This document shows, one piece after another, positions 4,294 through 30,912 of a stretch of 52,848 bases of DNA. The notes beneath the pieces are model-generated. The model ran no database searches. It was given only the letters and a program-made list of their open reading frames with translations, and had not been told where the DNA came from. Within the stretch, counting starts at the first letter, position 1. Every line of letters begins with the position of its first letter. The position numbers and the translations under genes are program-made. The stretch lies in NCBI GenBank assembly GCA_009923495.1, contig RFTJ01000008.1, positions 1-52,848 on the forward strand, written 5' to 3'. Source of the stretch: Actinomycetota bacterium. Its GTDB lineage: Bacteria > Actinomycetota > Actinomycetes > S36-B12 > UBA5976.

Positions 4294-7200
4294 ATGTCAG
4301 GACTGAGTATTGCACGATTAAGTCGTAAAGCGGCTATCGCGCTGTTGGCAGTTACAGCTTTACTCCTAGGTTTCAATGTCGGTGTGGCTAAGGCGCTGCC
4401 GGCAACGGTTAACCTAACCATCCACTATTTCCGCGACGCAGGTGATTATGCAACCCCGGCTGGCGCCACAGGCCCTTGGAATGTCTGGATCTGGAAAGAT
4501 GCTCCAGGTGGAGCCGATGACGTAGCAGTTAATGCCCCAAATGGAAATGCGTTTACCCAGCCGACGACTACGAAAGTTCTTGATAGTTGGAACTACAGTG
4601 CAACATTGAAACTAACTATCACAGGAATGCAGCCAGTTCATACTCAGATCGGTTTCATTGTTCGCCAAGGTCTTTGGGATGCAACAGACATCGGCTTTGA
4701 CCGATTCATTACTAACATTGATCCTGTTTCAGGCAACGCTGAAATTTGGCTGAAGCAAGGCGATAAGAATGTTTACACTTCTGTGCCTCGATTAGGCCCA
4801 GGCATTAAGAGTGCAAGCATCGATGACTTCCGAAAGATTACTGTTAACCTAAATCGCGCGCCTGCTACTGGTACCGCTGCAGCTAACTTCACAATTTGTC
4901 CGGTCCCCACCACGTCTGCAGAACCAGCACCATCTCCAGTTGCACCAACTGGCGTAACAGCGGCCGCCGGCAATGCGAAAGTTTTCTTAAAGTGGACCCA
5001 TGTTGCTGGCGCAACCGGATATAAGGTCTACCGAGCAGCATCAACTTTGCCAGCTGCCCCAACCGGTTTGACCGCAATTGCCGGCAATGCGAAAGTTTTC
5101 TTAAAGTGGACCCATGTTGCTGGCGCGACTAGTTACAAGGTTTATCGCGGCGCGAGCGCAACTTCGGTCACAACACTTTTGGGCGGCGACAGTACCAATG
5201 GCTACACCGACAGCACGGCCGTTAATAACACGAGTTACTACTATGCGGTAAAGGCATCAAATGCGGCAGGAGATTCGCTTAATTCAACGGCAGTACTCAG
5301 CAAGCCAGTCGCTACCTCGACTATCGCCGTGATGCCAGCGCCAACACCTTCAGCAGCTGCCGCAATTGTGCTGCCAACTACGGCTCTTGGCACGACAACA
5401 GCAAATGGTTACACCGACGCAACTGCAGTAAATCTCACCACCTATAACTACGGTGTTCGAGCCACCAATGGAACAGTTGACTCTCCTCTTTCAGCCATTG
5501 TCGCTAGCCGCCCGATTTCCACATCAACTGTGCTAGCTATGCCAACGCCAACGCCGTCAAACGTGGTCGTTGCCCCTACTTCTCCATGTCCGGGCGCTAC
5601 TGGTGTACCAACGATCTCAACGGCAACAGTTAGTGGATCGGTGGCGACGCTAAATCTTGGCTCTGATGTAACACTAGGCACCAACTACCTAATCTTCTTA
5701 AAGGACAAAAACAACGTTGACTTTGGCAGTCAAAAGACTTACTCGGGCAAGATTTTGACCTCAACGCAGTTCAATGCAAATTTTGTATACAGCGGTGACG
5801 ATTTAGGTGCCACTTATTCCGCTCTAAATACCAAATTCCGCGTATGGGCGCCCACCGCCTCCGCACTGTCCGTCAAGATTTATGACAGTGCAACGTCAGC
5901 ACTACCAAGCAGCACTGTGCCAATGACCAAGAGCACGCAGGGAACCTGGGTAGCTACTGTAAACGGTGACCTAAATGGCAAGATTTATATGTATGGGGTG
6001 ACCGTTGATGACCGTACCCTAGAAACGATTGACCCATATGTCCGTGCAACCACGATTAATGGAACGCGCGGCGTCATTTTAGATCTAACTAAAACTGACC
6101 CAGCAAATTGGGCTAATGATAAGGCTCCTGCTTTCAGTGGCAGTGCAACCGATGCAGTTGTTTACGAACTACATGTTCGGGACCTGTCTATGGATGCAAG
6201 TAGCGGATACCCAGCTGATCAAAAAGGTAAGTTCTCTGCACTGACCAACTTCAACACCACCTACTGTTCTGTGGCTTCTCCAGCGCCGACTGCTCCCACC
6301 GCTCCCACTGGCTTAGCGACAACAGCTGGAAATGCGAAAGTATTTTTGAAGTGGAACCAAACTGCAACCACCACCGGATATAAAATTTTCCGCGGCGCAA
6401 GTTCAACCACTGCAACAACTCAAATTGGTACAGCAACTGTCAACGGTTACACGGATTCGACTGCGGTAAATGGTACTACCTACTTCTACACAGTGAAGGC
6501 ATCAAATTCAACCGTCGATTCACCTGCTAGTACAGCAGTTTCAGGCGCAGCCTCAGCGACATCAATAGTTACTGCGATGCCGGCACCAACGCCTAGCGCG
6601 CCAGCTGCCATAACGCCATGGACCTGTCCCTCAGCATCAATCGTCAAGACTGGCATGGGCGCAATCAAGGATCTTGGCATTACCCACTTGGAACTTTTGC
6701 CGGTCTACGACTTTGGTTCAGTGAATGAAACCAATCCAACCTTTAACTGGGGTTATGATCCACAAAATCCGAATGTTCCTGAGGGCTCTTACTCAAGCGA
6801 TGCGACTAACCCTGCTGCTCGAATTACCGAATTAAAGCAAGGTGTCCAGGCCATCCATAACAATGGTATGCGCGTGGTTATGGATGTTATTTACAACCAT
6901 GTCATGAATCCAAACACTTTCAGTCAGGAAAGCTTGGTGCCTGGGTACTTCTTCCGCACAGACGCTTCGGGCAATCTAACCAATCAGTCTGGTTGTGGAA
7001 ACGATGTCGCATCCGAACGACCAATGGTTCGCAAGTACATCGTTGATTCAGTTGTTTACTGGGCAAAGCAATATCACATGGACGGCTTCCGCTTCGACAT
7101 TATGAGCTTGGTCGACAAGGTGACTATGGGCCAAGTGATGACTGAACTAAAGAAAATTGATCCGACCATTATCGTTTTCGGTGAAGGTTGGAGTTATGAC

Positions 7201-8124
7201 GAAAATAAGGCTCAGTTGCCTTATTCAATGCAGTCCCGCCAGGCAAATGCTGGCAACACAGAGTTGCAAGGCATCGGCTTCTTTAATGATCAATTGCGTG
7301 ACGGACTTAAAGGCGATACTGGAACCGATACCCTGCCAGGCTATGTGAATGGCCTAGCGAGCAATTACATTAACCAGGTAATAAATGGCATCTTTGGTCA
7401 AACTGCAACTAACTTCAACACCGACAAAGCCAGCAGCAGAAGCTGGACCGCAACTACTCCTGGGCAGTCGGTTAACTATGTTGAGGTCCACGATGGTTTA
7501 ACACTTTGGGACAAGTTGAAAGCAGCTAACACATTTGGAGTTACTGATACTGTATTGCAACGCCAGGGTAGGCAAGCCGCTTCACTAATGCTGCTGTCGC
7601 AGGGAATGCCATTCCTGCATGCAGGACAGGAATTCTTGCGTAGCAAGGGTGGAAACGCTAATAGCTATGCACCACCTGACTCAGCTACTACCACTGCACT
7701 CAAACTTGATTGGGAACTAAAAACTAATTCACTGAAGTGGAATCAAGCTTCGACCAATAAGATCAATGTTGATTACTATCGTGGTTTGATCGCCCTGCGT
7801 AAGGCCCACCCACTTTTTAGAATGAACAGTGTTGCTGAAATTAACAAACGTTTCGAATGGTTGCCGGGTTACGCAAGTAATGCACTTGGTTTTATGTACA
7901 AGAACACTGCAAGCGACGGTAGCAAACTTGGTGATACTTGGAATCGTATTGTGATTGGCTCCAATCCAAACGACACTGCGAAAACCATGGGCCTGCCATC
8001 TGGCACTTGGTATGTTGTTGTCAATGACACAGCGGCTGGCGTTTCAACACTGGCAACCATCACCAATGGTCAGGTTAGTGTGCCAGCAAACTCAACCGTG
8101 GTATTGACCGATACCAAGCCGTAG
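4294..8124 (+). CDS. pulA: Secreted type I pullulanase (GH13) with two inserted FN3 cassettes
   Basis: Debranching enzyme for alpha-1,6 links in pullulan, starch and glycogen, secreted by a signal peptide (about residues 1-37). The order is a PUD/CBM41-like starch-binding domain (TIHYFRDAGDY), an FN3-rich region (residues ~203-431), a GH13 N-terminal beta-domain (FRVWAPTASAL) and the GH13 barrel. Visible catalytic signatures are FNWGYDPQNP, DVIYNHV, nucleophile D935 in DGFRFD, acid E964 in GEGW and D1067 in VEVHDG. A second FN3 cassette (~659-777) interrupts the barrel before KDLGITHLELLPVYDF. Each FN3 cassette is bracketed by a cysteine pair (C202/C432, C658/C778). Start ATG 4294 was chosen over 4285 because GTGGAAGGA lies 8 bases upstream. 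malE follows 36 bases downstream, which suggests one operon. The catalytic set looks complete, so it is probably active. Confidence 0.93.
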   Translation: MSGLSIARLSRKAAIALLAVTALLLGFNVGVAKALPATVNLTIHYFRDAGDYATPAGATGPWNVWIWKDAPGGADDVAVNAPNGNAFTQPTTTKVLDSWNYSATLKLTITGMQPVHTQIGFIVRQGLWDATDIGFDRFITNIDPVSGNAEIWLKQGDKNVYTSVPRLGPGIKSASIDDFRKITVNLNRAPATGTAAANFTICPVPTTSAEPAPSPVAPTGVTAAAGNAKVFLKWTHVAGATGYKVYRAASTLPAAPTGLTAIAGNAKVFLKWTHVAGATSYKVYRGASATSVTTLLGGDSTNGYTDSTAVNNTSYYYAVKASNAAGDSLNSTAVLSKPVATSTIAVMPAPTPSAAAAIVLPTTALGTTTANGYTDATAVNLTTYNYGVRATNGTVDSPLSAIVASRPISTSTVLAMPTPTPSNVVVAPTSPCPGATGVPTISTATVSGSVATLNLGSDVTLGTNYLIFLKDKNNVDFGSQKTYSGKILTSTQFNANFVYSGDDLGATYSALNTKFRVWAPTASALSVKIYDSATSALPSSTVPMTKSTQGTWVATVNGDLNGKIYMYGVTVDDRTLETIDPYVRATTINGTRGVILDLTKTDPANWANDKAPAFSGSATDAVVYELHVRDLSMDASSGYPADQKGKFSALTNFNTTYCSVASPAPTAPTAPTGLATTAGNAKVFLKWNQTATTTGYKIFRGASSTTATTQIGTATVNGYTDSTAVNGTTYFYTVKASNSTVDSPASTAVSGAASATSIVTAMPAPTPSAPAAITPWTCPSASIVKTGMGAIKDLGITHLELLPVYDFGSVNETNPTFNWGYDPQNPNVPEGSYSSDATNPAARITELKQGVQAIHNNGMRVVMDVIYNHVMNPNTFSQESLVPGYFFRTDASGNLTNQSGCGNDVASERPMVRKYIVDSVVYWAKQYHMDGFRFDIMSLVDKVTMGQVMTELKKIDPTIIVFGEGWSYDENKAQLPYSMQSRQANAGNTELQGIGFFNDQLRDGLKGDTGTDTLPGYVNGLASNYINQVINGIFGQTATNFNTDKASSRSWTATTPGQSVNYVEVHDGLTLWDKLKAANTFGVTDTVLQRQGRQAASLMLLSQGMPFLHAGQEFLRSKGGNANSYAPPDSATTTALKLDWELKTNSLKWNQASTNKINVDYYRGLIALRKAHPLFRMNSVAEINKRFEWLPGYASNALGFMYKNTASDGSKLGDTWNRIVIGSNPNDTAKTMGLPSGTWYVVVNDTAAGVSTLATITNGQVSVPANSTVVLTDTKP
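4966..5126 (+). repeat. 47-bp exact direct duplication inside the FN3 region of the first pullulanase
   Basis: The 47 bases at 4966-5012 are repeated without mismatch at 5080-5126, an offset of 114 bases (38 codons, in frame). The duplication encodes the first half of an FN3 domain (AGNAKVFLKWTHVAGA). It leaves one half-domain followed by one full domain, and a third, C-terminal half-domain follows at about 5380-5540. Exact identity at the DNA level indicates a recent event, gene conversion, or an assembly effect. Confidence 0.9.
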
Positions 8125-8160
8125 CACAATATGGATATTTTGATGGAGGGGATTACGCCA

Positions 8161-9375
8161 ATGAAAAGAACTTTTCAACGCAGTTTCAGTGCGTCGATAG
8201 TCGTTGCCTTAATAACTGGCTCGCTAATTGCGAGCCCCAGCCAGGCGGCAAGTAAGCCGGTAGTCATCTGGTGTGACAACGCACGAGTTGCAATCATCAA
8301 AATGTGGGCCACCTCAAACGCCAGCAAACTTGGTGCAATAAAGGTAGTTGGCCAAGATAGCGTTAAAGGAAGCCTGAAAACAGTTCGCCCAGTTGATGCT
8401 CCAGACATCATCATTGGCGCCCACGACTGGATTGGCGCCTTAAAAGCGGATAGTAAAATTCAACCAGTAATCCTGCCCCCTACTGCAAAATTCGACCCAA
8501 AAGTGAAAGCTGCTTTTCAAATCAGTGGCCGTCAATATGGCGTGCCAATGCAGACTGAAAATGTAGCTCTTTTCCGCAACACAAAGTTAGTTCCTAAAGC
8601 ACCAAAAACCTTCGCAGATCTTGAGAAGGTTGCCCTTGCTCTTAAAAAGAAGAATTCTAAGAACCGTAACTTCGTGCCATTCGCAGTGCCGCAGGGTGCC
8701 GGTGGCGACGCATATCACATGTATCCATTATTCAGTGGCCTAGGTGGTTATTTCTTCGGCGGCAACTCGCTGAAATGGAAAACTAACGATGTAGGTGTAG
8801 CCAATTCGAAGTTCATAAAGAACTCGGTAATCATCGACAAGTGGTATAAAGAGGGTCTCATCAAGGCCTCAGTAAGTGCCGAAATCGCACTTACTGCTTT
8901 TACTAGCGGTAATGCGCCGTTCTACATCACAGGCCCGTGGAACCTGGGCAAGATTCGTTCTTCCGGCGTTGAATATGCCATCACACCGGTGCCAAACATT
9001 GTTAAAGGAATTCAGCCAGTTCCACTTATCGGTGTGCAGGGTGCCATGCTGACCAAGTGGGCTAATCAGCATAGAGTCACGATTGCGGCAAAGAAAGTAC
9101 TAACCGCCCTAGCCCAAAAGGATGCACAACTCTTCATCTCGAATCTGATGCTTCGTACGCCAGCTAACCTCGATGCAGCGAAGCAGTTTAATCGCCCAGG
9201 TGCGTCAGAATTTCAGCAGGCTGGGAAAGGCGGCATTCCGATGGCGGCGATGACTGCGATGAATGCAGTATGGGCCTCCGTCGGAACTGCATGGGTAAAG
9301 GCAACATCCGGAGCATCTAAAGCCGCCCCAGCCTTTAAGTCAGCAGATGCGGTAGTTCGCAAGGCTGTCAAGTAG
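8161..9375 (+). CDS. malE: Maltose/maltodextrin ABC transporter substrate-binding protein (first copy)
   Basis: Extracellular solute-binding protein of the MalE-like family 1, 404 residues. ATG 8161 is preferred over an upstream in-frame ATG at 8131 because GGAGGG (8145-8150) is correctly spaced. A signal peptide of about 31 residues ends in ASPSQAAS. No cysteine is present at the cleavage site, so it is not a visible lipoprotein, which is unusual for a cell with a single membrane. Family-like segments include DAPDIIIGAHDWIG, YGVPMQTENVALFRN and FYITGPWNLGKI. It lies between the pullulanase and malF and should deliver branched or linear maltodextrins released by that enzyme. A close paralogue sits at 24131. 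Exact ligand length preference cannot be read from sequence. Confidence 0.93.
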   Translation: MKRTFQRSFSASIVVALITGSLIASPSQAASKPVVIWCDNARVAIIKMWATSNASKLGAIKVVGQDSVKGSLKTVRPVDAPDIIIGAHDWIGALKADSKIQPVILPPTAKFDPKVKAAFQISGRQYGVPMQTENVALFRNTKLVPKAPKTFADLEKVALALKKKNSKNRNFVPFAVPQGAGGDAYHMYPLFSGLGGYFFGGNSLKWKTNDVGVANSKFIKNSVIIDKWYKEGLIKASVSAEIALTAFTSGNAPFYITGPWNLGKIRSSGVEYAITPVPNIVKGIQPVPLIGVQGAMLTKWANQHRVTIAAKKVLTALAQKDAQLFISNLMLRTPANLDAAKQFNRPGASEFQQAGKGGIPMAAMTAMNAVWASVGTAWVKATSGASKAAPAFKSADAVVRKAVK

Positions 9376-9403
9376 AGCCGACGCAAAAATCTTCTAGATT
9401 TTG

Positions 9404-9435
9404 GGTGTGGGTGCGGGTATTCTCGTACCCACACC
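9404..9435 (+). promoter_or_regulatory. malE-malF intercistronic hairpin (first operon)
   Basis: A 12-bp stem (9404-9415 with 9424-9435, one G-T pair) with an 8-base loop, located 28 bases after the malE stop. No poly-T run follows directly, so it may be a leaky terminator or an mRNA 3'-end stabiliser that makes more binding protein than permease. This role is known for malE-malF regions in other bacteria and is inferred here. Confidence 0.65.
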
Positions 9436-9474
9436 TACTAATAAAAAGTGTTTAAAATTCTGAGGGGTTTGTAA

Positions 9475-11016
9475 GTGTTTAAATTAGTCGCGCGGATTCT
9501 GGTTCTGGGCATTTTAGACGCACTTGCAATTGGCTCCATCCCACGAGTTTTAAGCCAAAAAGATTTATTGGTAACCATAGTTTTCTTTACCGTCTTCATT
9601 GGTTTAAACATTGTTTACTTCTGGCCAAAGGCAAAAGCCTCTCGCTGGCTAGCGCCCGGCACAACGCTACTTGCTATTTTCGTCATCATCCCAATCATTA
9701 TTAATGTGGTTCTGGCTGGAACAAATAATGCTACTGGCCATGAAGGAACACGCGAAGAAGCAATTACTGCGACGGTTGCCAGCTCTCTACAACAAAGTGA
9801 AGATGGTATTTATTACGATCAGCAAGCAGTATTTAAAGGTGACCAACTCGGCCTAATCTTGATAAATGCCCTATCTGGTGAAGTTTCATTCGGTACTTCC
9901 TCAGGAAATTCAATCATCGAAAATCCAAAGAAGCTAGCCGACGGTTCAATTGTCCCTCCCGAAGGCTGGACCGCTTACGGAACCTCTGATGCTGAGTTGC
10001 AAAAGCAAGTCGATTTTGTCACCGCTCAGCCAGGCGAGCAGTTCGCAATCCCAAATGGCAAAAATGAATTCATAGTTTGGGATGGAGCGAGTAATCCATA
10101 TAACGCTACGGCGCTTGTTATCTACGACAAGAAGAAGGATCGGCTAGTAGATACGACTAGCGGATACGTTTACGGTGAGACTAATGGCTCGTTCGTTGGC
10201 CCCAATGGCGAAGACATGACACGCGACGAGTCCTGGGTTGGATGGCAAACTTGGATAGGCATTGGAAACTTCACCAAGATATTTTCCGATCAAGACATTA
10301 GATCCGCATTCATGAAGATCTTGCTGTGGAATATCGCCTATGCAATCTTGGCAGTTGTTACCTCATTTGTTATTGGCTTGTTCCTCGCATTAACACTCAA
10401 CCACCCACGCATGAAGTTTCGTCGTTCAATGCGCTCCCTACTAATTATTCCGTATGCAGTTCCTGGAATTGTTGCAGTATCTGTCTGGGCGGGCTTGCTC
10501 AATGATGACTACGGGTTCATCAATGGAGTGTTCGGGACAAACATCAGATGGCTACTCGACCCAACTTGGGCCAAGGTTTCAGTCTTGCTGGTCAACCTTT
10601 GGATGGCTTTCCCTTACTTTTTCTTGATAACCACTGGAGCGCTACAAGCTATTCCAGCAGAACTATCTGAGGCTGCTGAAGTTGATGGCGCTCGACCAAG
10701 CCAGATACTGACTCGGATCAAAATGCCTTTACTTATGGTGGCCTTGACCCCCTTGATGATTGGTTCACTTGCTTACAATTTCAACAACTTTATGAACATC
10801 TATCTGCTCACCGGGGGAGGGCCGTTCACTGGCAATGACCCCAATGCTGGCGATACCGACATTTTGCTCAGTTACACCTGGAAAATGGCTTTCAATTCTG
10901 GCTCTGGCCAACAATTTGGTTTGGCTTGCGCGATTTCAGTACTTATATTCTTCTTCATCGCGCCAATTTCCATTTACGGATTTAAGCGTGCTCAATCGTT
11001 AGAGAATTTGAGCTAG
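9475..11016 (+). CDS. malF: Maltodextrin ABC transporter permease MalF (first copy)
   Basis: Inner-membrane permease, 513 residues, GTG start with GAGGGG 8 bases upstream. Membrane helices lie at the N-terminus (residues ~5-75). They are followed by a large extracytoplasmic loop (about 75-260), equivalent to the MalF P2 domain and containing IYDKKKDRLVDTTSGYVYGE. The binding-protein-dependent transport core follows, with the EAA loop EAAEVDGARPSQILTRIKMP that docks the ATPase. The last helix ends near the C-terminus. It is followed by malG, whose likely ATG start lies 9 bases beyond the malF stop. It should pair with MalG (11026) to form the channel for the MalE at 8161. No ATPase gene is in the window, so a MalK/MsmK-type subunit encoded elsewhere must serve it. 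Confidence 0.94.
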   Translation: MFKLVARILVLGILDALAIGSIPRVLSQKDLLVTIVFFTVFIGLNIVYFWPKAKASRWLAPGTTLLAIFVIIPIIINVVLAGTNNATGHEGTREEAITATVASSLQQSEDGIYYDQQAVFKGDQLGLILINALSGEVSFGTSSGNSIIENPKKLADGSIVPPEGWTAYGTSDAELQKQVDFVTAQPGEQFAIPNGKNEFIVWDGASNPYNATALVIYDKKKDRLVDTTSGYVYGETNGSFVGPNGEDMTRDESWVGWQTWIGIGNFTKIFSDQDIRSAFMKILLWNIAYAILAVVTSFVIGLFLALTLNHPRMKFRRSMRSLLIIPYAVPGIVAVSVWAGLLNDDYGFINGVFGTNIRWLLDPTWAKVSVLLVNLWMAFPYFFLITTGALQAIPAELSEAAEVDGARPSQILTRIKMPLLMVALTPLMIGSLAYNFNNFMNIYLLTGGGPFTGNDPNAGDTDILLSYTWKMAFNSGSGQQFGLACAISVLIFFFIAPISIYGFKRAQSLENLS

Positions 11017-11025
11017 GGGGAAGTG

Positions 11026-11985
11026 ATGGCAACTACAACTAATGCTCGTTTGGTAGCAAAAAAATCGTCTACTAAGCCTTTTATCAGCCTGAATCAACGA
11101 GGAACGATTTGGTGGCGTTACATTATTGGGCTAGTAGCCATTTGCTTCTCACTTTTTCCAGTTTTATTCGTGGTGTCTACTGCTTTTAATTCCCTCGGCA
11201 TTCTTGATGGTACCCACCTATTGCCTAAGCAGTTTGGCTTAGATAATTTCCGCCACTTGTTCATTGATTTCAACGATCCAAATAGTGACCCTTCGCTTCC
11301 GGCATCGCATCCACCGTTTTGGTCTTGGTACCGAAATTCGCTTTTGCTTTCATTTACTGCCGCATTCTTGCAGGTAGTAATTGCTACTTACGCTGCATTC
11401 GCATTCAGCCGCCTGCGCTTTAAGGGTAGAAAAGCAACAATTAGCGGTTTGTTGATTATCCAGATGTTTCCGCAGGCTTTAGGTCTGGTTGCATTAATCA
11501 CCATCGCACAACGTATCGGCGCAATTTGGCCAGCAGTTGATCAGAATACCTATGCCGGCTTGCTACTTGTTTATTTAGGTGGCTCAATGGGATTCAATGC
11601 ATATCTGATTAAGGGTTACTTTGACACTATTTCAACAGAACTCGATGAAGCAGCTCTGCTGGATGGTGCAACAATCACCCAGATATTTTTCAAAATAATT
11701 TTGCCACTTTCAGCACCAATTTTGGCAGTGGTCGGATTACTCTCGTTCATAGGCTTAATAAACGACTTTTTGCTCGTTCAAACATTTTTAACTTTGACTG
11801 GTAGTGATGACACTCGTAACACATTAGCAACGGGGTTGCATACCCTAGTCGGAGATCCTCGATCGTCGAACTGGGGTGTTTTCGCTGCCGGCTCGCTGTT
11901 AGCGAGTATCCCGATGGTCGTGCTCTTCCAGTTCTTGCAGCGCTATATCGTAGGCGGCCTAACCTCTGGTTCGGTTAAAGGTTAA
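11026..11985 (+). CDS. malG: Maltodextrin ABC transporter permease MalG (first copy)
   Basis: Second permease subunit, 319 residues from ATG 11026. An alternative GTG at 11023 is possible, but AGGGGG (11015-11020) fits the ATG better. About six membrane helices are visible. The ATPase-docking EAA loop reads EAALLDGATITQIF, and the C-terminus is the typical QRYIVGGLTSGSVKG. It forms a unit with MalE and MalF immediately upstream. The reading frame is intact and close in sequence to the second copy at 26972. The operon appears to end here, since a ~200-base gap follows before the next gene. Confidence 0.94.
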   Translation: MATTTNARLVAKKSSTKPFISLNQRGTIWWRYIIGLVAICFSLFPVLFVVSTAFNSLGILDGTHLLPKQFGLDNFRHLFIDFNDPNSDPSLPASHPPFWSWYRNSLLLSFTAAFLQVVIATYAAFAFSRLRFKGRKATISGLLIIQMFPQALGLVALITIAQRIGAIWPAVDQNTYAGLLLVYLGGSMGFNAYLIKGYFDTISTELDEAALLDGATITQIFFKIILPLSAPILAVVGLLSFIGLINDFLLVQTFLTLTGSDDTRNTLATGLHTLVGDPRSSNWGVFAAGSLLASIPMVVLFQFLQRYIVGGLTSGSVKG

Positions 11986-12192
11986 TCGCCGAAGGCAGTC
12001 TCAGGTCTAGAAAGTGGCTTATTAGTCGTTGTCGGCTTGTCTGTAACGAAATCGTGACGGAAAATAGAAAATTTTTCGTTGATTTAGGGCAAATTCTGGG
12101 GATAGTCTTTAGCAATAGGCGATGCACGATTTAGCGAAAGAATCTTCATTCGATTGCTAATTGAGTTATCTCATCAGAAGGGGATATTTTCA
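11986..12192 (+). promoter_or_regulatory. AT-rich upstream region of the PUD-TIG gene
   Basis: A 207-base gap without a protein-like ORF. It contains TGTAACGAAATCGTGACG (about 12050) and an AT-rich stretch around 12060-12120, with a possible weak promoter TTGATT (about 12078) followed by ATAGTC-like bases. Probably the promoter region of the gene at 12193. No clear operator or terminator was found. Confidence 0.35.
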
Positions 12193-16098: not shown

Positions 16099-16126
16099 TG
16101 TAGGTAGGGTAACTCCTACCTACACT
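16097..16126 (+). terminator. Hairpin overlapping the stop codon of the PUD-TIG gene
   Basis: A perfect 12-bp stem (16097-16108 with 16115-16126) with a 6-base loop. It starts inside the TAG stop (16096-16098) and ends just before the ribosome-binding site of the next gene. It has no T-run, so it may be a weak terminator or mRNA-protecting hairpin between 12193 and the glycosidase fragments. Confidence 0.6.
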
Positions 16127-16143
16127 CAACGAGGTAATTCACT

Positions 16144-19677: not shown

Positions 19678-19724
19678 TTTAGGAAATTTGATTCAATACC
19701 TGTTCACTTTGCGGTATTTTTAGC

Positions 19725-19760
19725 GTGAAACCGCTTACAAATTTTGTGAAACCGCTTACA
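19725..19760 (+). promoter_or_regulatory. Tandem LacI-family operator (two identical copies)
   Basis: The 15-mer GTGAAACCGCTTACA occurs at 19725-19739 and again at 19746-19760, exactly 21 bases apart, or two helical turns. It has the central CG and half-site layout of LacI/CcpA/MalR-type operators. Placement in the 222-base gap before the starch-binding gene at 19900 points to control by a maltose- or carbon-responsive LacI-family regulator encoded elsewhere. A possible -10 box TATTAT lies at 19817-19822, so the operators sit about 60-90 bases upstream of it. Confidence 0.75.
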
Positions 19761-19816
19761 CGAAAATCGTTACAATTTTTTCAAAATTTTTCATTACTTT
19801 TTCGTTAATTTCTGCC

Positions 19817-19822
19817 TATTAT
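19817..19822 (+). promoter_or_regulatory. Possible -10 box for the PUD-TIG gene at 19900
   Basis: TATTAT in a very AT-rich stretch downstream of the tandem operators. The -35 position (about 19794) is poorly matched to consensus, as expected for an activated or sigma-relaxed promoter. Position is tentative. Confidence 0.35.
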
Positions 19823-19899
19823 GAATTTGCGATTGAAGGGGAATTCAACACAGTTGCTCAATCAATTTGCATCGGTTACGAATGGAAGGACATCACATC

Positions 19900-22404: not shown

Positions 22405-22435
22405 GTTGCAAAACTAAAGGGGTAAAACCTTAAGG

Positions 22436-22472
22436 GGTTGGGGCTTGTAACACTTTGTTGCAAGCCCCAACC
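22436..22472 (+). terminator. Strong hairpin terminator after the PUD-TIG gene
   Basis: A 17-bp stem (22436-22452 with 22456-22472, one G-T pair) closed by a 3-base loop, 31 bases after the stop. It is the strongest hairpin in the locus. It separates gene 19900 from the three-PUD gene at 22548. Confidence 0.75.
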
Positions 22473-22547
22473 TTGAGGTAATTAACGAGGCTATCCAATC
22501 CACGGATAGTTAAAAAGGAGCAACGGCTCTGATTATGAGGGGGAATC

Positions 22548-24080
22548 GTGGATACATCGAAGGCAATTAGTCAGAAAAACAACATGCGACCTTCATTCAA
22601 GGTAGCGAAAATTCGAATAGGACAATTTTTGATGAAGCGAACTGCGCGTCAAATTAAATCAATGGTTTTGGCTGCACTAGCTGTAGCACTTTTTTCTGGC
22701 GGTTTGACCGCTACGTCAGCGCAAGCCGCTGGCGACAGAACTCTCATAATTCATTACTCACGTACAACACTCGATAATGACGGAACATCTGCTAACGGAT
22801 ACTGCGATGAAGATCCTTGTGGACTCTATGATGGTTGGAATTTATGGCTCTGGCAGACCGGTGATTCAGACTCAGGCAATACTGCAACCTGGGGAGAAGT
22901 TGGTGGCGGATGGCAATTTGATCCTGCCGACCAGGATAATTTCGGTGCGAAAGCGATCATTAAAGTTACCAGTGCTTCAACAAAGGTAGGCTTCATAGTT
23001 CGTATTGGTTCAAATAAAAATGATGTTGCTGAAGATCGCTTCATAGACATGAAGCCAACTGGAACCACTGAAGTTTGGCTTAAGCAAAACGATTCAATGA
23101 TTTATACCTCAAATCCAAACGATCGAGTACTTCGGATTCACTACAAGCGAGGAGATAATAAGTACACCGGATGGGACATCCTGACCCAAGAAGAGGATTC
23201 GGCTGACAACAAGGCCGTGCCATTTGCTAGTGCGCCTGATTGCTTTGGTCGGGTAGCAAGCATTAACTTGCCCGACATTACCCAAGTGGACCAAAAGTTT
23301 ATTTTGCGTAAGGGTGGAAATGCACTCACGCTTCAGTCAGAGGTATTCACTGCAACTTTGTCTCCGAAAAAGTACACAGACTTTTGGCTGGATGCCAATC
23401 TATTTGACGACGGTGGCACGCTGGTGGACATTACCGTCGACAAGACTGTTGGCGAGGAAACCGTTACCTATTTGGACATGACTGATAAAGCTAGTTTGAC
23501 TAATCCCACCGGAAATTTGGTGGCAGTTCATTACAGTCGCCCACTGCAAGATTATGCAGGTTGGAAAGTTAATCACCTTGGAAATGGTGTTGCCTACAGC
23601 CCTGACTTGAAGGACAGTTTCGGCCGCATTGCGTGCGTTTACGAATTCGATCGCACAGCATCTTCGATTGTTATCACCATCAAGAAGGGTTCAACTATGG
23701 ACCTTGCTTCGGGGGAACTGCCAACTGGACTCGGTGGTCAGCGCACTGTTAACATCACTGGCTCAATGACTGAGGTATGGATTAAGCAAGGCAATAAGAC
23801 AGTCTTCGACAAAGTGCTTGTTCCAGATCCAGCAATTAAGGCTGCCCAAAAATTATCAAAGGTCCCAACATCTCTCAAGCGAGGCAAGAGTGTAGCTTTG
23901 CCGGCAAAAACCGATGCCAAGCTTGTGGTTAAGTGGACAGTGATTACGCCACAAAATTGCAAAATCAAGTCTGGCAAACTCTTCGCTAAGAGTCCTGGAA
24001 CTTGCAAACTTGGTGCAATGCAAAGTGGTAATGCAGCTTTCAAACTTTATACCAACCAGTTCAGAATCACTATTAACTAA
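22548..24080 (+). CDS. Secreted protein made of three PUD/CBM41-like domains
   Basis: 510 residues from GTG 22548, which has a strong GAGGGGGA just upstream. This gives a ~40-residue N-terminal stretch before the hydrophobic signal segment (MVLAALAVALFSGGL, cleavage after SAQAAG). ATG 22632 would give a conventional signal peptide and remains possible. Three PUD-like modules follow: IIHYSRTTLDND (with GWNLWLW), RIHYKRGDNKYTGWDIL and AVHYSRPLQDYAGWKV. A short lysine-rich C-terminal domain of about 80 residues (from KLSKVPTSLKRGKS) resembles cell-surface Ig-like tails. No enzyme domain is present. It stands immediately before the second malE, with only 50 bases between, so it is likely cotranscribed. 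Probably an accessory alpha-glucan-binding protein for that importer. Confidence 0.83.
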   Translation: MDTSKAISQKNNMRPSFKVAKIRIGQFLMKRTARQIKSMVLAALAVALFSGGLTATSAQAAGDRTLIIHYSRTTLDNDGTSANGYCDEDPCGLYDGWNLWLWQTGDSDSGNTATWGEVGGGWQFDPADQDNFGAKAIIKVTSASTKVGFIVRIGSNKNDVAEDRFIDMKPTGTTEVWLKQNDSMIYTSNPNDRVLRIHYKRGDNKYTGWDILTQEEDSADNKAVPFASAPDCFGRVASINLPDITQVDQKFILRKGGNALTLQSEVFTATLSPKKYTDFWLDANLFDDGGTLVDITVDKTVGEETVTYLDMTDKASLTNPTGNLVAVHYSRPLQDYAGWKVNHLGNGVAYSPDLKDSFGRIACVYEFDRTASSIVITIKKGSTMDLASGELPTGLGGQRTVNITGSMTEVWIKQGNKTVFDKVLVPDPAIKAAQKLSKVPTSLKRGKSVALPAKTDAKLVVKWTVITPQNCKIKSGKLFAKSPGTCKLGAMQSGNAAFKLYTNQFRITIN

Positions 24081-24130
24081 TCAACCCTGCATGTGTTTAA
24101 CGTGCTAAAACCAAGTCCTTCGGAGGAAAA

Positions 24131-25336
24131 ATGAAAAGTAAGAAAGTTGGAATAGTAGGTGGCATAGTAGCTGCAGCTATGTTGGTAACAGGGTTGACAA
24201 TGCCTGCAGCTCAGGCAGCAACTGTAGTTACGATTTGGACCGATTTGGACCGGGCAAGTGCATTTCAATCATGGGCTAAGGCCTTTAACCGAAAGCATAA
24301 GTCAATTGTCGTAAATGTTATCGGCAAGGACGGCCATAAAGATAAATTGAAGACTGTTTCGGATACTGATGCTCCAGACATTATCGTGGGCGCGCATGAC
24401 TGGATTGGCCCACTGCAATCAGATGGTTCGATTCTTCCGCTGACAATAGCCAATGCTTCCCAGTTTGATAAGCGCGACAAGGATGCATTCAAACTCGGTG
24501 GTGCCACCTATGGCGTGCCAGTAGCTGTCGAAAATGTGGCACTGTTCCGAAATGCAAACTTGGTGCCTAAAGCACCAAAGAAGATGGCAGATATCGAGTT
24601 GGACTGCAAGAAGTTTTTTAAGAAGAACAAGAAAGCAAAATTCTGTCTCGCAGTTTCGCCAGGTGATCCGTATCACATGTACCCATTCTTTTCTGGACTA
24701 GGCGGATATATATTCGGTGGCTCATCAGGGAACTGGAACACCAACAAACTGGGAATTGCAAACAGCAAGTTCCTCAAGAATTCAACCTTGATTGACAAGT
24801 GGTATCGCGAGAAACTGTTTAATGTAAATGTGACTGGCGATACTGCTCTTGCAGCTTTTACCGGCAAGCAAGCCCCATACATGGTTACAGGTCCATGGAA
24901 CTTGGACAAGATCCGACTAAAGAACATCAATTACGAGATGTCACCATTCCCAACGGTAGTTAAGGGATTCAAGGCAGTTCCGTTTTATGGCGTGCAGGGT
25001 GCGATGCGCACTAAGTGGGCAGCGCCTGGCAAGCATAAGAACGTGTTGCAGGTAAACCAGGTTCTTGCGGATCTGACAACCAAGGACGCACAACTTCGGA
25101 TTGCAAATCTAACCATTCGGACTCCGGCAAATAAACTTGCTCGAGCTGCCTTTAAAGATCCTGACAGCGCGGCATTCTTCAAGGCCGGTCAAGGTGCAAT
25201 CACCATGCCGCAGATTCTGGCGATGGGCGCTGTTTGGACTCCGTTAGGTAATGCTTGGAGCCAGGTCAAGACCGAGAAACTTGCTTCCAAGCGGTTCAAG
25301 AAAGCGCAGTCAACCATCTCGAAAGCAATAAAGTAA
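24131..25336 (+). CDS. malE: Maltose/maltodextrin ABC transporter substrate-binding protein (second copy)
   Basis: 401 residues; ATG 24131 with GGAGG just upstream. A signal peptide (about 29 residues, ending AAQAAT) has no lipobox cysteine, as in the first copy. Shared segments with the paralogue at 8161 include DAPDIIVGAHDWIG, YGVPVAVENVALFRN and TGPWNLDKI. It should bind maltodextrins for the MalF/MalG pair directly downstream. Sequence differences in the middle region suggest a different oligosaccharide preference, which is inference. Confidence 0.93.
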   Translation: MKSKKVGIVGGIVAAAMLVTGLTMPAAQAATVVTIWTDLDRASAFQSWAKAFNRKHKSIVVNVIGKDGHKDKLKTVSDTDAPDIIVGAHDWIGPLQSDGSILPLTIANASQFDKRDKDAFKLGGATYGVPVAVENVALFRNANLVPKAPKKMADIELDCKKFFKKNKKAKFCLAVSPGDPYHMYPFFSGLGGYIFGGSSGNWNTNKLGIANSKFLKNSTLIDKWYREKLFNVNVTGDTALAAFTGKQAPYMVTGPWNLDKIRLKNINYEMSPFPTVVKGFKAVPFYGVQGAMRTKWAAPGKHKNVLQVNQVLADLTTKDAQLRIANLTIRTPANKLARAAFKDPDSAAFFKAGQGAITMPQILAMGAVWTPLGNAWSQVKTEKLASKRFKKAQSTISKAIK

Positions 25337-25366
25337 AAAGAGTTACGAAAGCGAAAGTTCACGAAT

Positions 25367-25412
25367 CGGCTAGCGCAGATACTTAGCAATTTGCCAGTGT
25401 CTGCGCTAGTCG
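25367..25412 (+). promoter_or_regulatory. malE-malF intercistronic hairpin (second operon)
   Basis: A 16-bp stem (25367-25382 with 25397-25412, two wobble pairs) and a 14-base loop, in the same relative place as the hairpin of the first operon but unrelated in sequence. A role in separating expression of binding protein and permeases is inferred. Confidence 0.65.
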
Positions 25413-25448
25413 ATGAACTACATATTTTAATTAGGTGGGGTTAAATCG

Positions 25449-26963
25449 GTGGTTGGCTTAGTTGCCCGAATTCTGTTCTTGGGACTTATTGATTCTTTGG
25501 CATTTTGGGCTGGAACCCACTTAGTAGTTTCCAGCAACTGGTTAGCCTTGACCTGGTTGGTAATTACCACTGTGATTATCAACATCGTCTATTTGGCCAA
25601 GCGAACTAAGGCTTCTCGCTGGCTGTTGCCAGGCACCATTCTGTTAGTAATTTTCCAGATCTATCCGGTCTTATTTACTGCAGTAGCTGCTTTTAGCAAT
25701 TATTCGACCGAACACTTTGTCAGCAGAGATGAAGCCCGAAAGGCCGTGCTGCTTTCATATGTTCAGCAGGTTGAAGATAGTCCTGAATACCCAATTCGAG
25801 CTATCCACAAAGGTAAAGAGTTCGGACTTCTGATAGTCAATCCAGAGACCGAGAAGGTTTACTTAGGCACCGAAGATGCAGCAACAGAGATTCCCTCTCC
25901 TAAATTTGATTCAGATGGCCTGCCGCTGCCTCCAGCGGATTGGAATGTATACAGTGACGATCAAATCAATTCGTCCGAGTCAATCCAAAATTCGCTCACG
26001 GACTTCGCCTCTCCGATAAGTAAGGACACTTACATAAAAGGTGATACCTATCCCGTTGGCTATGAGTATTCCACCACCGTAATCTATGACGCCAAAAAAG
26101 ATCAGTTGATAGATACAACAACTGGATATGTTTTCAAGGAAGTCGAAGGTGCATTCGTAGCTGAAGACGGCACTTCACTAACACCTGGTTGGCGAGTAAA
26201 TGTAGGATTCAAGAATTTTCACTCTGTAATCACTGATCCGGTAGTCCGAGGCCCATTTGTTCGAGTTTTGATTTGGACCTTCGTCTACGCATTCTTAACT
26301 GTGATAACTACCTTTATCCTGGGCTTAACTTTGGCTTTGATTTTGAATCATCCAGGCGTCAAAGGTCGCAAGTTCTTGAGATCCTCGCTAATTATTCCGT
26401 ACGCAATGCCCGGCTTTTTGTCTTTACTGATCTGGGCCGGCTTCCTTAATGATGATTTTGGCGTTATCAATAATTTGCTCGGAACAAACATTCCCTGGCT
26501 AACGGATGCATTTTGGGCAAAAGTATCAACGGTGCTGGTTAATTTATGGCTTGGTTTCCCTTACATGTTCCTAATTTGCACGGGCGCTATTCAGTCCATT
26601 CCAGCCGAGCTCGCCGAAGCGGCCTCGGTAGATGGAGCAAAACCGCGCCAGATACTTACCAGAATCAAATTGCCATTACTGATGGTCACCGTATCTCCAT
26701 TGCTAATTGGATCCTTTGCCTACAATTTCAATAATTTTGGCGGCATTTATCTATTGACTGGTGGTGGACCTCCAGCTGCAGATTCTGAAATTGCTGGCTC
26801 AACCGATATTTTGATTTCCTACACCTACAAGTTGGCTATTGAATCGGGACACGGTAACGATTACGGTCTGGCTTGTGCTATTTCGATCTTGATCTTCTTT
26901 ATTGTTGCGGGCATCTCAACACTTTCATTCACCCGTACCCGTGCTTTAGAGACTTTGAACTAG
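25449..26963 (+). CDS. malF: Maltodextrin ABC transporter permease MalF (second copy)
   Basis: 504 residues from GTG 25449 behind GGTGGGG. Same plan as the first copy: two or three N-terminal helices, an extracytoplasmic P2-type domain (about residues 75-260, with VIYDAKKDQLIDTTTGYVFK), then the transport core with ATPase-docking loop EAASVDGAKPRQILTRIKLP. It is followed after 8 bases by malG. Conservation with the first copy is strongest in the core and weaker in the extracytoplasmic domain. That fits two transporters with different partner proteins. Confidence 0.94.
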   Translation: MVGLVARILFLGLIDSLAFWAGTHLVVSSNWLALTWLVITTVIINIVYLAKRTKASRWLLPGTILLVIFQIYPVLFTAVAAFSNYSTEHFVSRDEARKAVLLSYVQQVEDSPEYPIRAIHKGKEFGLLIVNPETEKVYLGTEDAATEIPSPKFDSDGLPLPPADWNVYSDDQINSSESIQNSLTDFASPISKDTYIKGDTYPVGYEYSTTVIYDAKKDQLIDTTTGYVFKEVEGAFVAEDGTSLTPGWRVNVGFKNFHSVITDPVVRGPFVRVLIWTFVYAFLTVITTFILGLTLALILNHPGVKGRKFLRSSLIIPYAMPGFLSLLIWAGFLNDDFGVINNLLGTNIPWLTDAFWAKVSTVLVNLWLGFPYMFLICTGAIQSIPAELAEAASVDGAKPRQILTRIKLPLLMVTVSPLLIGSFAYNFNNFGGIYLLTGGGPPAADSEIAGSTDILISYTYKLAIESGHGNDYGLACAISILIFFIVAGISTLSFTRTRALETLN

Positions 26964-26971
26964 GAGAGCAT

Positions 26972-27913
26972 ATGTCAACTCAAACTTTGGATTCTGTGGC
27001 AGCTCGCCAGGTGCAGTCGCGTGCACCGAAAAAGCGCAACAAGAATAGAGGCAAACTTTGGTGGCGGTATTTAACCGCCGTCCTAGCATTTTTATTCGCT
27101 GTCATGCCAATTGTCTGGGTAATGATGGCAGCCTTGAATCCGGCTGGCACACTTTCAACTCTGAATTTGCACTGGAGCGACTTTGGTCTTGATAACTTCC
27201 GATTCTTATTCGGCAAGCATGACATTAGCAATGACGTAACTTATGAGAATTATCCATACCTACATTGGTATGGTAACTCGCTCATGATTTCTTCTGTGGC
27301 AGCAATCTTGCAAGTAACAGTCGCAACTGTGGCCGCTTACGCATTTAGTCGCATTGCTTTCAAAGGGCGCCGACTTAGTCTTGGTGGACTGCTCATTCTG
27401 CAAATGTTTCCCCAGATCCTTTCTTTCATTGCACTCTTTTTGATTATGCAGAAAATCGGAACAATTTTCCCATTCATGGGAACTGGCACCATTGCCGGAC
27501 TAATTCTTATTTATTTGGGCGGGGCAATGGGCTACAACACTTATTTGCTCAAGGGCTTCTTTGACACCATACCTCGTGAGCTCGATGAGGCGGCAATTGT
27601 TGATGGAGCTACCGCTAACCAAGTGTTCATGAAAATCATTTTGCCATTGGCAGCCCCAATGCTCGCGGTAGTTATGTTGCTCTCCTTCATCGGACTCATG
27701 AACGACTTCGTCTTAGCCAGCATTTTCTTGACTAAGACCGATCAGATGACCCTGGCTGTTGGCCTTCGTTCATTTATTTCAGGGCGATACGCATCAAACT
27801 GGGGGGTATTTGCGGCTGGCGCCATGTTGGCTGCGCTACCAGTTGTAATCCTCTTCCAAGTACTTCAGCGCTTCATCGTCGAGGGACTATCCGCAGGCTC
27901 TGTTAAGGGCTAG
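26972..27913 (+). CDS. malG: Maltodextrin ABC transporter permease MalG (second copy)
   Basis: 313 residues from ATG 26972, just behind AGGAGA that overlaps the malF stop. A longer in-frame opening from 26873 would overlap malF and is rejected. Six helices, docking loop EAAIVDGATANQVF and C-terminus QRFIVEGLSAGSVKG. It completes the second MalEFG transporter and is followed after about 50 bases by the second pullulanase, so all four are probably one transcript. An ATPase gene is again absent. Confidence 0.94.
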   Translation: MSTQTLDSVAARQVQSRAPKKRNKNRGKLWWRYLTAVLAFLFAVMPIVWVMMAALNPAGTLSTLNLHWSDFGLDNFRFLFGKHDISNDVTYENYPYLHWYGNSLMISSVAAILQVTVATVAAYAFSRIAFKGRRLSLGGLLILQMFPQILSFIALFLIMQKIGTIFPFMGTGTIAGLILIYLGGAMGYNTYLLKGFFDTIPRELDEAAIVDGATANQVFMKIILPLAAPMLAVVMLLSFIGLMNDFVLASIFLTKTDQMTLAVGLRSFISGRYASNWGVFAAGAMLAALPVVILFQVLQRFIVEGLSAGSVKG

Positions 27914-27966
27914 TAAATAACGAAATCTTGATGTTAAACAACATAGAAAAAGGGAAAAAGTATCAA

Positions 27967-30912
27967 ATGAAGGTATCAGTTCAGCGCAAGGCAATCATCA
28001 GAATCCTTGCCGCATTTTCACTACTAGCAGGGTTTTTAGGTGCATATGGATTTGCCCCGGCATCAGCATCCACAACAAGCACCATAACGATTCACTACAA
28101 TCGCCCGGATAATAACTACACCGACTGGAACATGTGGATTTGGTTTCCAGGGTTCACTGACGACTACGCCAAAGAACATGGCCTGATTGGCACTCAAGAT
28201 ACTTCAGCGCGAAATCTCTTCAATGGAACTGATGCGTATGGCAAGAAGTTGACTCTGACTCTGACTGATATTCAGGATGTCAAAAAGATTGGCTTTATCG
28301 TTCGCAAAGATGATTGGTCTAAGGATGTCGGCTCCGATCGATTTATTACTGAGTTTGATGCTAATGGAAATGCCGAAATTTGGATCCGCTCTGGAATTGC
28401 CAAAGTTTATACTTCAGTTCCATGTTTGTGTGCTGAAATTTATAGCGCAACCCAAGATGATTATCGAACCATCAATGTCACACTGAGCGAAACTTTCCGT
28501 GGCGTTACCGGCGACACTGGCGCACAAGGCTGGACAATTTCTGACGGATTAAATATTGTCTCAGTGGCGGTAGCTCAAGCTGGTAAAACTATTAGAACCA
28601 CCAGAGCGCTCCGGCTTACAACAGATGCCGACATGGTATTGGGCAAAACATATACCGTAACTAACACTCGATCATTTGCGGTCACGAAGAAGCAAGTGAA
28701 ATCAAATGTTGCAACTTTGACGACTACTACTGCACCTGGTGTTTCACCTGGTCAAACTGTGATTGTAAAAAATGTTGATGGTCGAATAGATGGTGTCGTT
28801 AAAGTAGTAGCTTCACCAACGCCAACTGCATCGCCAACTGCAATCACTTTCTCGTATGCAAAAACATCTCCAGACATTGCACTATCTGACGCAAGTGGAA
28901 CTGTTGAAACTGGCTTTGGCAGCGCACCTGTCGTAACCGGTCAAATCTTCTCTTCGCCTACCTTTGCGGAAAAATTCACTTACGACGGAGATGATCTAGG
29001 GAACACCTACACACCTACCAAAACCAGTTTCCGCGTTTGGGCACCAACAGCTACCGACGTTAAACTTCTGACATTCGGAAATGCACTGCCACCTTCGTCA
29101 ATCTCAGATACGCCAACTGTGATACAGCTGACTCAAGGTGTGAAGGGAACTTGGTTCGGTTCAATTGATGGCGATCAGCATGGTTTGATTTACCAGTACC
29201 GAGTCTCGGTTAATGGTGAAGTCAACGACACCATCGATCCTTATGCTCGTTCGGCGATGGCTAATGGCACCAAGGGTGTCGTTCTGGACTTGTCCAAAAC
29301 TAATCCCACGGGCTGGGCCACCCATAGCAAACCTGCATTCAGCGGCAAAGCCGTAGATGCTTCGGTTTACGAGCTTCACGTTCGTGATTTCTCAGTAGAT
29401 GCCACCAGTGGTATTCCGGAAAATCACAAAGGAAAGTTCCTGGCATTTACTGACCTGAACACTTCTTATTCGACAAAGGTAGGAACGAAAACCGTAACTA
29501 CCAAGACTGGTCTAAGTGCACTCAAGGAACTTGGAGTAACGCATGTTGAGTTGCTACCCATCTACGACTTCAACTCTGTCAATGAAACTCCTTCGCCTTC
29601 GGCAAGTCCGCAGTTCAACTGGGGATATGACCCACAAAACTTCAACATTCCGGAAGGTTCTTACTCAACCGACCCCAACGATCCAATTGCCCGCGTTAAG
29701 GAGTTAAAGCAGGCCATTCAGGCGATGCACGCAAACGGTCTACGCGTTGTGATGGACGTTGTCTACCCACACGTTGGAAGTGCAGTTGACTTTAGTCAGC
29801 AGCGCATTGTTCCCGGCTATTTCTACCGAACGGAAGCCAATGGTGAGCTAGCAAACGGAAGTGGCTGTGGCAATGAACTTGCATCTGAGCGGCCAATGGT
29901 TCGAAAGTTTGTAACCGACTCATTTAAGTATTGGACGTCGGAATACAAGATGGATGGATATCGGTTAGATCAAATGGGTCTAATGGACATCACGACTGTT
30001 AACGGAATTCGATCGGCGATTGACTCCGTTGACTCATCGGTAATCACTTACGGTGAAGGCTGGAACATCGGAAGCGTATTGCCGGTCGCACAAAAAGCCG
30101 CGCAGCCGAACGTCGCCCAGATTCCTAAGTTTGGAGTATTCAACGACCAGATACGAGATGCAATCAAGGGATCAACTGGCAATCTAGTAGCGCCTGGATG
30201 GATTTCTGGAGACCCTTACGCAAGCGTTGATGTCAAGACCGGCATTACTGCTAACACAGATTACAGTGCAGAATTGTACCCCAACTGGACAACTGTAAAT
30301 CCTGGCCAGTCTGTGAACTATGTAGAAGCCCATGACAACCACACCTTGTACGACAAGTTAAAGGCCAGCGCCCCAGGCACAGATGCTCAAGCAGCTGTCA
30401 AAGTCCGACTTGCTGGCGCAGTTATGTTATTGGCGCAAGGCATGCCATTCATTCATGCGGGACAAGAGTTCTTGCGCACTAAAGAGGGCAATGGCAACAG
30501 CTACAACGCTCCGAATGAGATTAACTCGCTCAAGTACGGTTCGCGGTTAGCCAATGCAGTGACGGTTAAGTACTACGCCGGTTTGATTTCTATCAGAAAG
30601 CAGCATCCAGCATTTAGGATGTCAACTTCGGCGCAAATCAGGGCGAATCTGAAGTTCATGAAAACTGCAGATTCCGTTATCGCTTACCGAATCAATGGGG
30701 CAGCGGTTCGAGATACATGGAAGAACATCGTTGTAGTTCATAATTCTCAGACCACGCCAGCATCGGTTAGTCTGCCATCTGCTGGTGAATGGCAATTGTT
30801 TGTGACTGGGACTTCAGTTTCAACTAATCCAACTAAGCCAGTTAAGACATTGAAGCGGGTGTACAACTTGAATGTACCTGCGCAGTCAACGGTGATTGCC
30901 GTAAAGAAGTAA
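27967..30912 (+). CDS. pulA: Secreted type I pullulanase-like GH13 protein (second copy)
   Basis: 981 residues from ATG 27967, where the signal peptide MKVSVQRKAIIRIL begins (cleavage near ASASTTS). In-frame ATG 27931 and TTG 27928 are less likely. A PUD domain (TIHYNRPDNNYTDW) is followed by the N-terminal pullulanase beta domains and the GH13 barrel. The YNWGYDP-type motif is FNWGYDPQNF. Catalytic residues are D668 in DGYRLD, E697 in GEGW and D790 in VEAHDNHTLYD. Region I reads DVVYPHV: the usual asparagine before the histidine is proline (P601). No FN3 cassettes are present, unlike the first copy. A small linker PSPSASP is inserted before the NWGYDP motif. Probably active, but the region I change leaves doubt about full activity. 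Confidence 0.9.
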   Translation: MKVSVQRKAIIRILAAFSLLAGFLGAYGFAPASASTTSTITIHYNRPDNNYTDWNMWIWFPGFTDDYAKEHGLIGTQDTSARNLFNGTDAYGKKLTLTLTDIQDVKKIGFIVRKDDWSKDVGSDRFITEFDANGNAEIWIRSGIAKVYTSVPCLCAEIYSATQDDYRTINVTLSETFRGVTGDTGAQGWTISDGLNIVSVAVAQAGKTIRTTRALRLTTDADMVLGKTYTVTNTRSFAVTKKQVKSNVATLTTTTAPGVSPGQTVIVKNVDGRIDGVVKVVASPTPTASPTAITFSYAKTSPDIALSDASGTVETGFGSAPVVTGQIFSSPTFAEKFTYDGDDLGNTYTPTKTSFRVWAPTATDVKLLTFGNALPPSSISDTPTVIQLTQGVKGTWFGSIDGDQHGLIYQYRVSVNGEVNDTIDPYARSAMANGTKGVVLDLSKTNPTGWATHSKPAFSGKAVDASVYELHVRDFSVDATSGIPENHKGKFLAFTDLNTSYSTKVGTKTVTTKTGLSALKELGVTHVELLPIYDFNSVNETPSPSASPQFNWGYDPQNFNIPEGSYSTDPNDPIARVKELKQAIQAMHANGLRVVMDVVYPHVGSAVDFSQQRIVPGYFYRTEANGELANGSGCGNELASERPMVRKFVTDSFKYWTSEYKMDGYRLDQMGLMDITTVNGIRSAIDSVDSSVITYGEGWNIGSVLPVAQKAAQPNVAQIPKFGVFNDQIRDAIKGSTGNLVAPGWISGDPYASVDVKTGITANTDYSAELYPNWTTVNPGQSVNYVEAHDNHTLYDKLKASAPGTDAQAAVKVRLAGAVMLLAQGMPFIHAGQEFLRTKEGNGNSYNAPNEINSLKYGSRLANAVTVKYYAGLISIRKQHPAFRMSTSAQIRANLKFMKTADSVIAYRINGAAVRDTWKNIVVVHNSQTTPASVSLPSAGEWQLFVTGTSVSTNPTKPVKTLKRVYNLNVPAQSTVIAVKK

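Follow-up and report, generated by a model that had tools for sequence, protein, structure and literature searches.

Gene clusters for polysaccharide use in monoderm bacteria have been described as gpPULs, for example in Roseburia and Eubacterium rectale, one of them being for starch. A gpPUL is defined by a polysaccharide-degrading enzyme, a transport system and a transcriptional regulator; it does not include enzyme-free binders (PMC5320581). Secreted enzyme-free starch binders have nevertheless been reported from monoderms. Sas20, a flexible or extended protein of the Ruminococcus bromii amylosome, carries several starch-binding domains, acts beside amylases and pullulanases, and belongs to an assembly formed by dockerin/cohesin pairs (PMC9112005). 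Cgt of the actinomycete Actinoplanes sp. SE50/110 has a single CBM20 and, in the cited part of the report, is not considered to be membrane-anchored and is described without an importer cluster; its deletion did not affect growth on starch (PMC7275007). Tandem CBM41 modules that bind glycogen occur in streptococcal SpuA, PulA and SAP, fused to the enzyme and accompanied by an LPXTG sortase anchor (PMC2582482; PDB 2j44, 2ya1). In diderm Bacteroides, the SGBP-B proteins (PDB 5e7g, 6e57, 7k44) are enzyme-free glycan binders of the outer membrane built on an IPT/TIG chain and belong to SusCD loci for beta-glucans or xyloglucan. CBM41 has also been noted in planktonic actinobacteria (Luna-1) by a genome survey, in the cited part of which it does not appear as free binders (PMC12422013).

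Comparison with the described systems

The locus analyzed here is located in the window, a stretch of 52,848 nucleotides (bases 1-52848 of contig C8) from a 1.45-Mb actinobacterial genome that is 97% complete in 59 contigs. Coordinates are window positions unless another contig or locus is named. This small actinobacterium carries a large starch/glycogen-type cluster, in which enzymes and sugar importers are combined with long secreted enzyme-free proteins carrying PUD (CBM41) domains. As in the gpPULs, degrading enzymes and ABC importers are clustered in a monoderm, so that the enzyme and the transporter of the gpPUL definition are present, but a regulator within the cluster is absent and enzyme-free binders are added. 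The binders resemble Sas20 as secreted, extended multi-domain proteins without an enzyme that are encoded beside an amylase and pullulanases, whereas their binding domains are unrelated to those of Sas20, being CBM41 placed on TIG, and Pfam detected no assembly domain in them. They share with Cgt the secretion by an actinomycete and the lack of an enzyme, but carry multiple CBM41 beside importers. Unlike in the streptococcal proteins, the tandem modules are free of the enzyme and lack LPXTG. Among solved structures, the TIG stalks were closest to the SGBP-B proteins, although their binding domain is different and TIG itself is widespread.

The original prediction regarded this layout as undescribed and as a monoderm counterpart of the Sus-type system. 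The open-access literature contained no PUD/TIG binders beside ABC importers, but enzyme-free monoderm starch binders are already known from Sas20 and Cgt, and the locus with its CBM41-TIG binders beside malEFG is an elaborate new version of a feeding locus of known type. The Sus analogy held for the division of labour and for the TIG stalks nearest to SGBP-B. It was not supported for the surface location, as no known signal for anchoring the binders on the cell surface, as in Sus-type systems, was detected. Pfam found no SusC/SusD among the locus proteins either, ABC importers being present instead.

We read the locus, with a probability of about 0.65, as a gpPUL-like feeding locus for alpha-glucan (starch/glycogen) equipped with secreted multivalent CBM41 binders. 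This reading is based on the domain and enzyme families, the nearest CBM41 structures, and at least one module with an intact aromatic motif in each binder of the window. It is also based on the synteny with two related genomes (G035 and G038), an operator common to the window species and G035, a MalK-type ATPase in the genome, and a parallel beta-glucan-type locus with enzyme-free Ig-like proteins. The unaffected starch growth of the Cgt mutant is a caution against it by analogy. In the proposed scheme, four binders, namely a giant PUD-MBG-TIG protein, PT1, PT2 and P3, would bind the polymer extracellularly and keep it close to the enzymes. Through its own PUD each pullulanase would attach to this polymer and remove alpha-1,6 branches, with alpha-1,4 bonds being hydrolysed by the amylase. 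The two MalEFG importers would then take up maltodextrins, presumably powered by one MalK-type ATPase encoded elsewhere. A common LacI-type operator would control two binder operons, and the hairpins that follow binder and malE genes may ensure that these gene products outnumber the permeases and enzymes. The substrate, binding, regulation and stoichiometry in this scheme are those we infer.

Gene organization and enzymes

The gene content, domain identities, secretion signals, synteny, operator and hairpins described below are features of the DNA itself. All genes across 4285-30912 are in a single orientation (+), as are the other window features given here, in the order pul1, malE1, malF1, malG1, PT1, a broken malZ-like gene, the amylase gene, PT2, P3, malE2, malF2, malG2 and pul2. 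The two predicted pullulanases were confirmed, as type I, by the NCBIfam profile TIGR02104, with 637.7 bits for pul1 (4285-8124) and 711.4 bits for pul2 (27928-30912, probable start ATG 27967) against the equivalog cut-off of 504.5 bits. Pul1 contains an N-terminal secretion signal, one N-terminal PUD (4414-4788), CBM48 and a pullulanase C-terminal domain, and pul2, also secreted, one N-terminal PUD (28081-28422). The single amylase was likewise found as a GH13 alpha-amylase with a signal peptide (17563-19677; Pfam Alpha-amylase, E 6e-60). A separate PUD-bearing amylase is encoded on contig C14 of the same genome.

The locus had been predicted to start at 4294, but it begins earlier, because positions 1-4114 encode the C-terminal part of the giant enzyme-free PUD-MBG-TIG protein (TIG and MBG by Pfam; orthologue in G035). 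Its N-terminal 1863 aa are encoded on the adjoining contig C19, the end of which shares an exact 99-bp overlap with the window start, and PUD and TIG were detected in this part. The total protein of approximately 2,900 aa showed 57-73% identity to the intact 2936-aa orthologue in G035, whose gene sits directly upstream of pullulanase 1. Four PUD-like modules were found in the giant protein by a custom profile, which is less independent than Pfam because it was seeded with modules of this very locus.

Two genes of the locus are broken. The giant gene appears in the window as two ORFs in different frames (88-822 and 683-4114) with a break near 806. The malZ-like maltodextrin glucosidase gene (16144-17578), omitted from the original prediction, was assigned by NCBIfam (maltodextrin glucosidase) and by tblastn against the G035 and G038 copies, which are both intact with 612 aa; tblastn located the loss of residues 161-293 and a frame shift near 16620. 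Compared with G035, approximately 130-145 codons are missing at each break and the reading frame changes; either true deletions or errors of the assembly may account for this.

Enzyme-free PUD proteins

Three secreted enzyme-free proteins with eight PUD modules had been predicted, and Pfam confirmed them as two, three and three modules. PT1 (12154-16098, probable start GTG 12193) carries PUD at 12298-12648 and 12703-13059 and at least seven TIG domains. PT2 (19867-22404, probable start GTG 19900), supported also by orthologue alignment, carries PUD at 20017-20361, 20485-20802 and 20944-21285 and at least two TIG domains. The module limits in PT1 and PT2 were set with the custom profile. P3 (22548-24080, probable start ATG 22632; Pfam PUD E 4e-36, aligned orthologues) contains PUD at 22737-23117, 23127-23396 and 23517-23813 and a C-terminal domain, and Pfam detected no TIG in it. 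The proposed separation of the binding domain from the enzyme was supported for all three proteins, and its placement on TIG stalks for PT1 and PT2 but not for P3. The Pfam E-values of the free PUD proteins ranged from 4e-18 to 4e-36 per protein, far past chance. The scores of PT1, PT2, P3, pul1 and pul2 for PF03714 (PUD/CBM41) were 40.9-124 bits against the curated cut-off of 25, which the single modules likewise exceeded.

The nearest structure to the PUD modules was CBM41, for which complexes with alpha-glucans have been solved. P3 matched PDB 2j71 with an E-value of 5.6e-13, and the solved CBM41 of Thermotoga PulA could be aligned with module 1 of P3 and module 3 of PT2. In this alignment the aromatic platform lies in the WNLWIW motif, and the second and third aromatics of the motif (W..W.W) were read for each module. 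Both were W in all enzyme-borne PUDs, namely those of pul1, pul2, the C14 amylase and the equivalent enzymes in G035 and G038. The platform aromatics were retained in four of the eight free modules, with W/F in one: the pairs were W/W and Y/G in PT1 modules 1 and 2, W/F, C/Y and W/W in PT2 modules 1 to 3, and W/W, L/Q and N/L in P3 modules 1 to 3. Since the other four free PUDs had lost one or both aromatics, alpha-glucan binding cannot be assumed for every module, and this counts against the feeding reading.

Such losses, with none among the enzyme-borne modules, would also be expected if most free PUD modules no longer bound glycan and had become Ig-like building blocks in a layer that is secreted or part of the cell envelope. 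The aromatic losses in P3 are common to the window and G035, which is in line with this alternative. However, PT1, PT2 and P3 each possess at least one module with an intact-looking aromatic motif, and the P3 of G038 has the aromatics in all three modules, so that we consider structural units of this kind quite improbable. Judging from G038, P3 modules 2 and 3 probably lost their binding role in the lineage to which the window species and G035 belong. The natural CBM41 series found here, intact and degenerate, free and enzyme-borne, provides material for studying the recruitment and loss of binding modules.

Structure prediction of the PUD proteins, which had been proposed as a check, added little. 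The AlphaFold models of P3 (from a four-sequence alignment) and PT2 (from a three-sequence alignment) had low mean pLDDT values of 53 and 61, respectively. The best Foldseek matches of the P3 model were streptococcal tandem-CBM41 pullulanases, which at this model quality lends weak support to the CBM41 assignment; the matches of the PT2 model were given the same low weight.

The C-terminal domain of P3 (23826-24077) reappears with 37-43% identity in secreted proteins encoded near GH16 genes on contigs C4 and C12 (L061; L062), and may be a domain for secretion or for the envelope that these proteins have in common.

Secretion and the lack of a known anchor

Sec-type N-termini were found in PT1, PT2, P3, both pullulanases, the amylase and both MalEs. 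In the same proteins, neither LPXTG near the C-terminus, nor a C-terminal membrane segment, nor a lipobox was detected, the last being absent even from both MalEs. The genome encodes sortase, Lgt and LspA. Sortase anchoring was rejected, as sortases exist but no locus protein has a C-terminal LPXTG. A lineage without lipoprotein processing was rejected as well, given the presence of Lgt and LspA and lipobox-bearing solute-binding proteins in the genus, for which sister genomes provide typical examples with, for instance, LSAC.

The capture of glucan at the cell surface, as originally proposed, was not supported, because no known cell-wall or membrane anchor signal was present on any of the locus proteins. 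Extracellular alpha-glucan capture by the free PUD proteins can reasonably be inferred. The absence of an anchor also counts against the feeding reading, as products and binders could diffuse off.

The same result weighs on the idea that the free PUD-TIG proteins act in adhesion or aggregation, attaching cells to one another, to algal debris or to particles that bear starch, with feeding being secondary. Long TIG and MBG repeat arrays are common in adhesins, and those of the binders are very long; moreover, free PUD proteins occur apart from malEFG in three genomes (G011, G012 and G038). Nevertheless, no known anchor would tie the PUD-TIG proteins to the cell, and in two species the binder genes stand among those for importers and hydrolases, and we regard an adhesin role as unlikely.

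The feeding reading itself might be extended to a diffusible, unanchored network, in which multivalent CBM41 binders and non-lipidated MalEs would be released jointly as an extracellular alpha-glucan depot surrounding the small monoderm cell, MalE would shuttle sugars to MalFG without a lipid anchor, and the beta-glucan-type locus on contig C4 would be a second such system. This extension is speculative and, taken as a whole, doubtful. The locus bears on the ecological question of how small streamlined actinobacteria can feed on polymers and still keep the products from their neighbours. It makes product retention testable, with much coding length spent on enzyme-free binders and no visible anchors even on the MalEs.

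Importers

Two malEFG sets were present as predicted (8131-11985 and 24131-27913). The best NCBIfam families of the six subunits were MalE, MalF and MalG, but all six stayed under the equivalog cut-offs, and the importers are therefore called maltodextrin-type here rather than certified MalEFG. MalE1 (8131-9375, SBP_bac_8) and MalE2 (24131-25336, assigned also by Pfam) were 47% identical to each other. MalF1 (9475-11016) and MalF2 (25449-26963) scored 299.8 and 343.4 bits, respectively, against a cut-off of 392, and MalG1 (11023-11985) and MalG2 (26873-27913, probable start ATG 26969) scored 221.1 and 240.5 bits against 261. These scores, together with malZ being broken in the assembly, count against the feeding reading. 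The window contains no MalK gene, and the single OB_MalK-type ATPase of the genome is encoded on a different contig. All three SBP_bac_8 proteins of the genome, MalE1, MalE2 and that at L106 5157-6455, have Sec signals and lack a lipobox.

In trees of few sequences, the split between sets 1 and 2 predated the divergence of the window species and G035, and a third malEFG set of G035 clustered with its set 2.

Conservation in relatives

Recurrence of PUD-TIG proteins beside malEFG in related genomes, which had been proposed as a check, was observed in G035 and, in part, in G038. G035 has the full set in the same order, the sole interruption being the end of a contig within malF1, and a third PT2-P3-malEFG module comes after it. 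In G038 the set is reduced to P3-malE-malF-malG-malZ-pul2 with different neighbours. The proteins of the window and G035 were about 50-87% identical (65% for PT1), and the set has therefore been maintained across species.

PUD was found in 3 of the 23 genomes of the genus, the 20 others being without it, and the same eight genomes accounted for all PUD-bearing members of the family (8 of 43) and the order (8 of 166), several of the surveyed genomes being incomplete. No PUD was detected in the neighbourhoods of more distant MalE relatives in Micrococcus, Nocardioidaceae and Promicromonosporaceae. As PUD is limited to a few genomes of the genus, family and order, the locus is regarded as an accessory trait of few species.

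The absence from most of the genus argues against the idea that the locus handles an extracellular alpha-glucan or storage polymer made by the cell itself instead of foreign starch. PUD does not distinguish between sources of alpha-glucan, and the secreted enzymes and binders would suit either use, but the twin importers with secreted hydrolases point to consumption, and the parallel locus of the beta-glucan type hints at storage glucans from outside. We consider the use of own glucan highly improbable.

Small secreted PUD-only proteins apart from malEFG were found in another genus of the family and in G038, with two, one and two modules (L053 9184-10206, L054 2180-2863 and L052 1327-2514, respectively).

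Operator, parallel locus and hairpins

Two exact copies of a LacI-type operator, TGAAACCGCTTACA, are located before PT2 at 19726-19739 and 19747-19760. The motif TGAAACCGCTTWCA, which we take to be of the LacI type, precedes PT2 in two copies in the window and three in G035, and a single copy precedes the giant gene in the window genome as well as in G035. The two copies before PT2 were the only exact matches in the window, and there were none elsewhere among the 108 loci compared. At two mismatches, the genome showed no excess of sites over the reversed control, and only exact and one-mismatch sites were therefore used.

No transcriptional regulator was found among the scanned starch-locus genes. 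The genome has a single LacI gene, which lies on contig C4 in a locus (L106 3024-18635) that also has a one-mismatch TGAAACCGCTTWCA site and encodes two GH16 and one GH1 enzymes, two permeases with their solute-binding protein, and three secreted Ig-like or fn3 proteins without a Pfam enzyme domain. The C4 locus is probably a laminarin locus parallel to the starch locus, and a single LacI regulator may control both. The third G035 module lacks TGAAACCGCTTWCA and has three copies of the palindrome-like TTACCRYGGTAA before its PT2 copy (L047 3702-4057), suggesting a different regulator.

Strong hairpins were predicted in the malE1/malF1 gap (9376-9474; z -4.85, with no shuffle as stable), after PT2 (22405-22530; z -7.18), in the malE2/malF2 gap (25337-25448; z -5.77), and, by folding against shuffles, after the giant gene (4115-4200). 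A weaker hairpin lies downstream of PT1, and the stretches before PT1 and PT2 folded barely better than shuffles. In E. coli, the malE-malF hairpin raises the output of the preceding gene, and by analogy the hairpins here may raise that of the gene upstream of each. Hairpins after malE are also present in G035 and G038 with differing sequences. In the three species, the strong hairpins after malE or binder genes had z of -3.9 to -7.2, with further examples at L046 15561-15673, L047 9424-9536 and L049 12944-13050.
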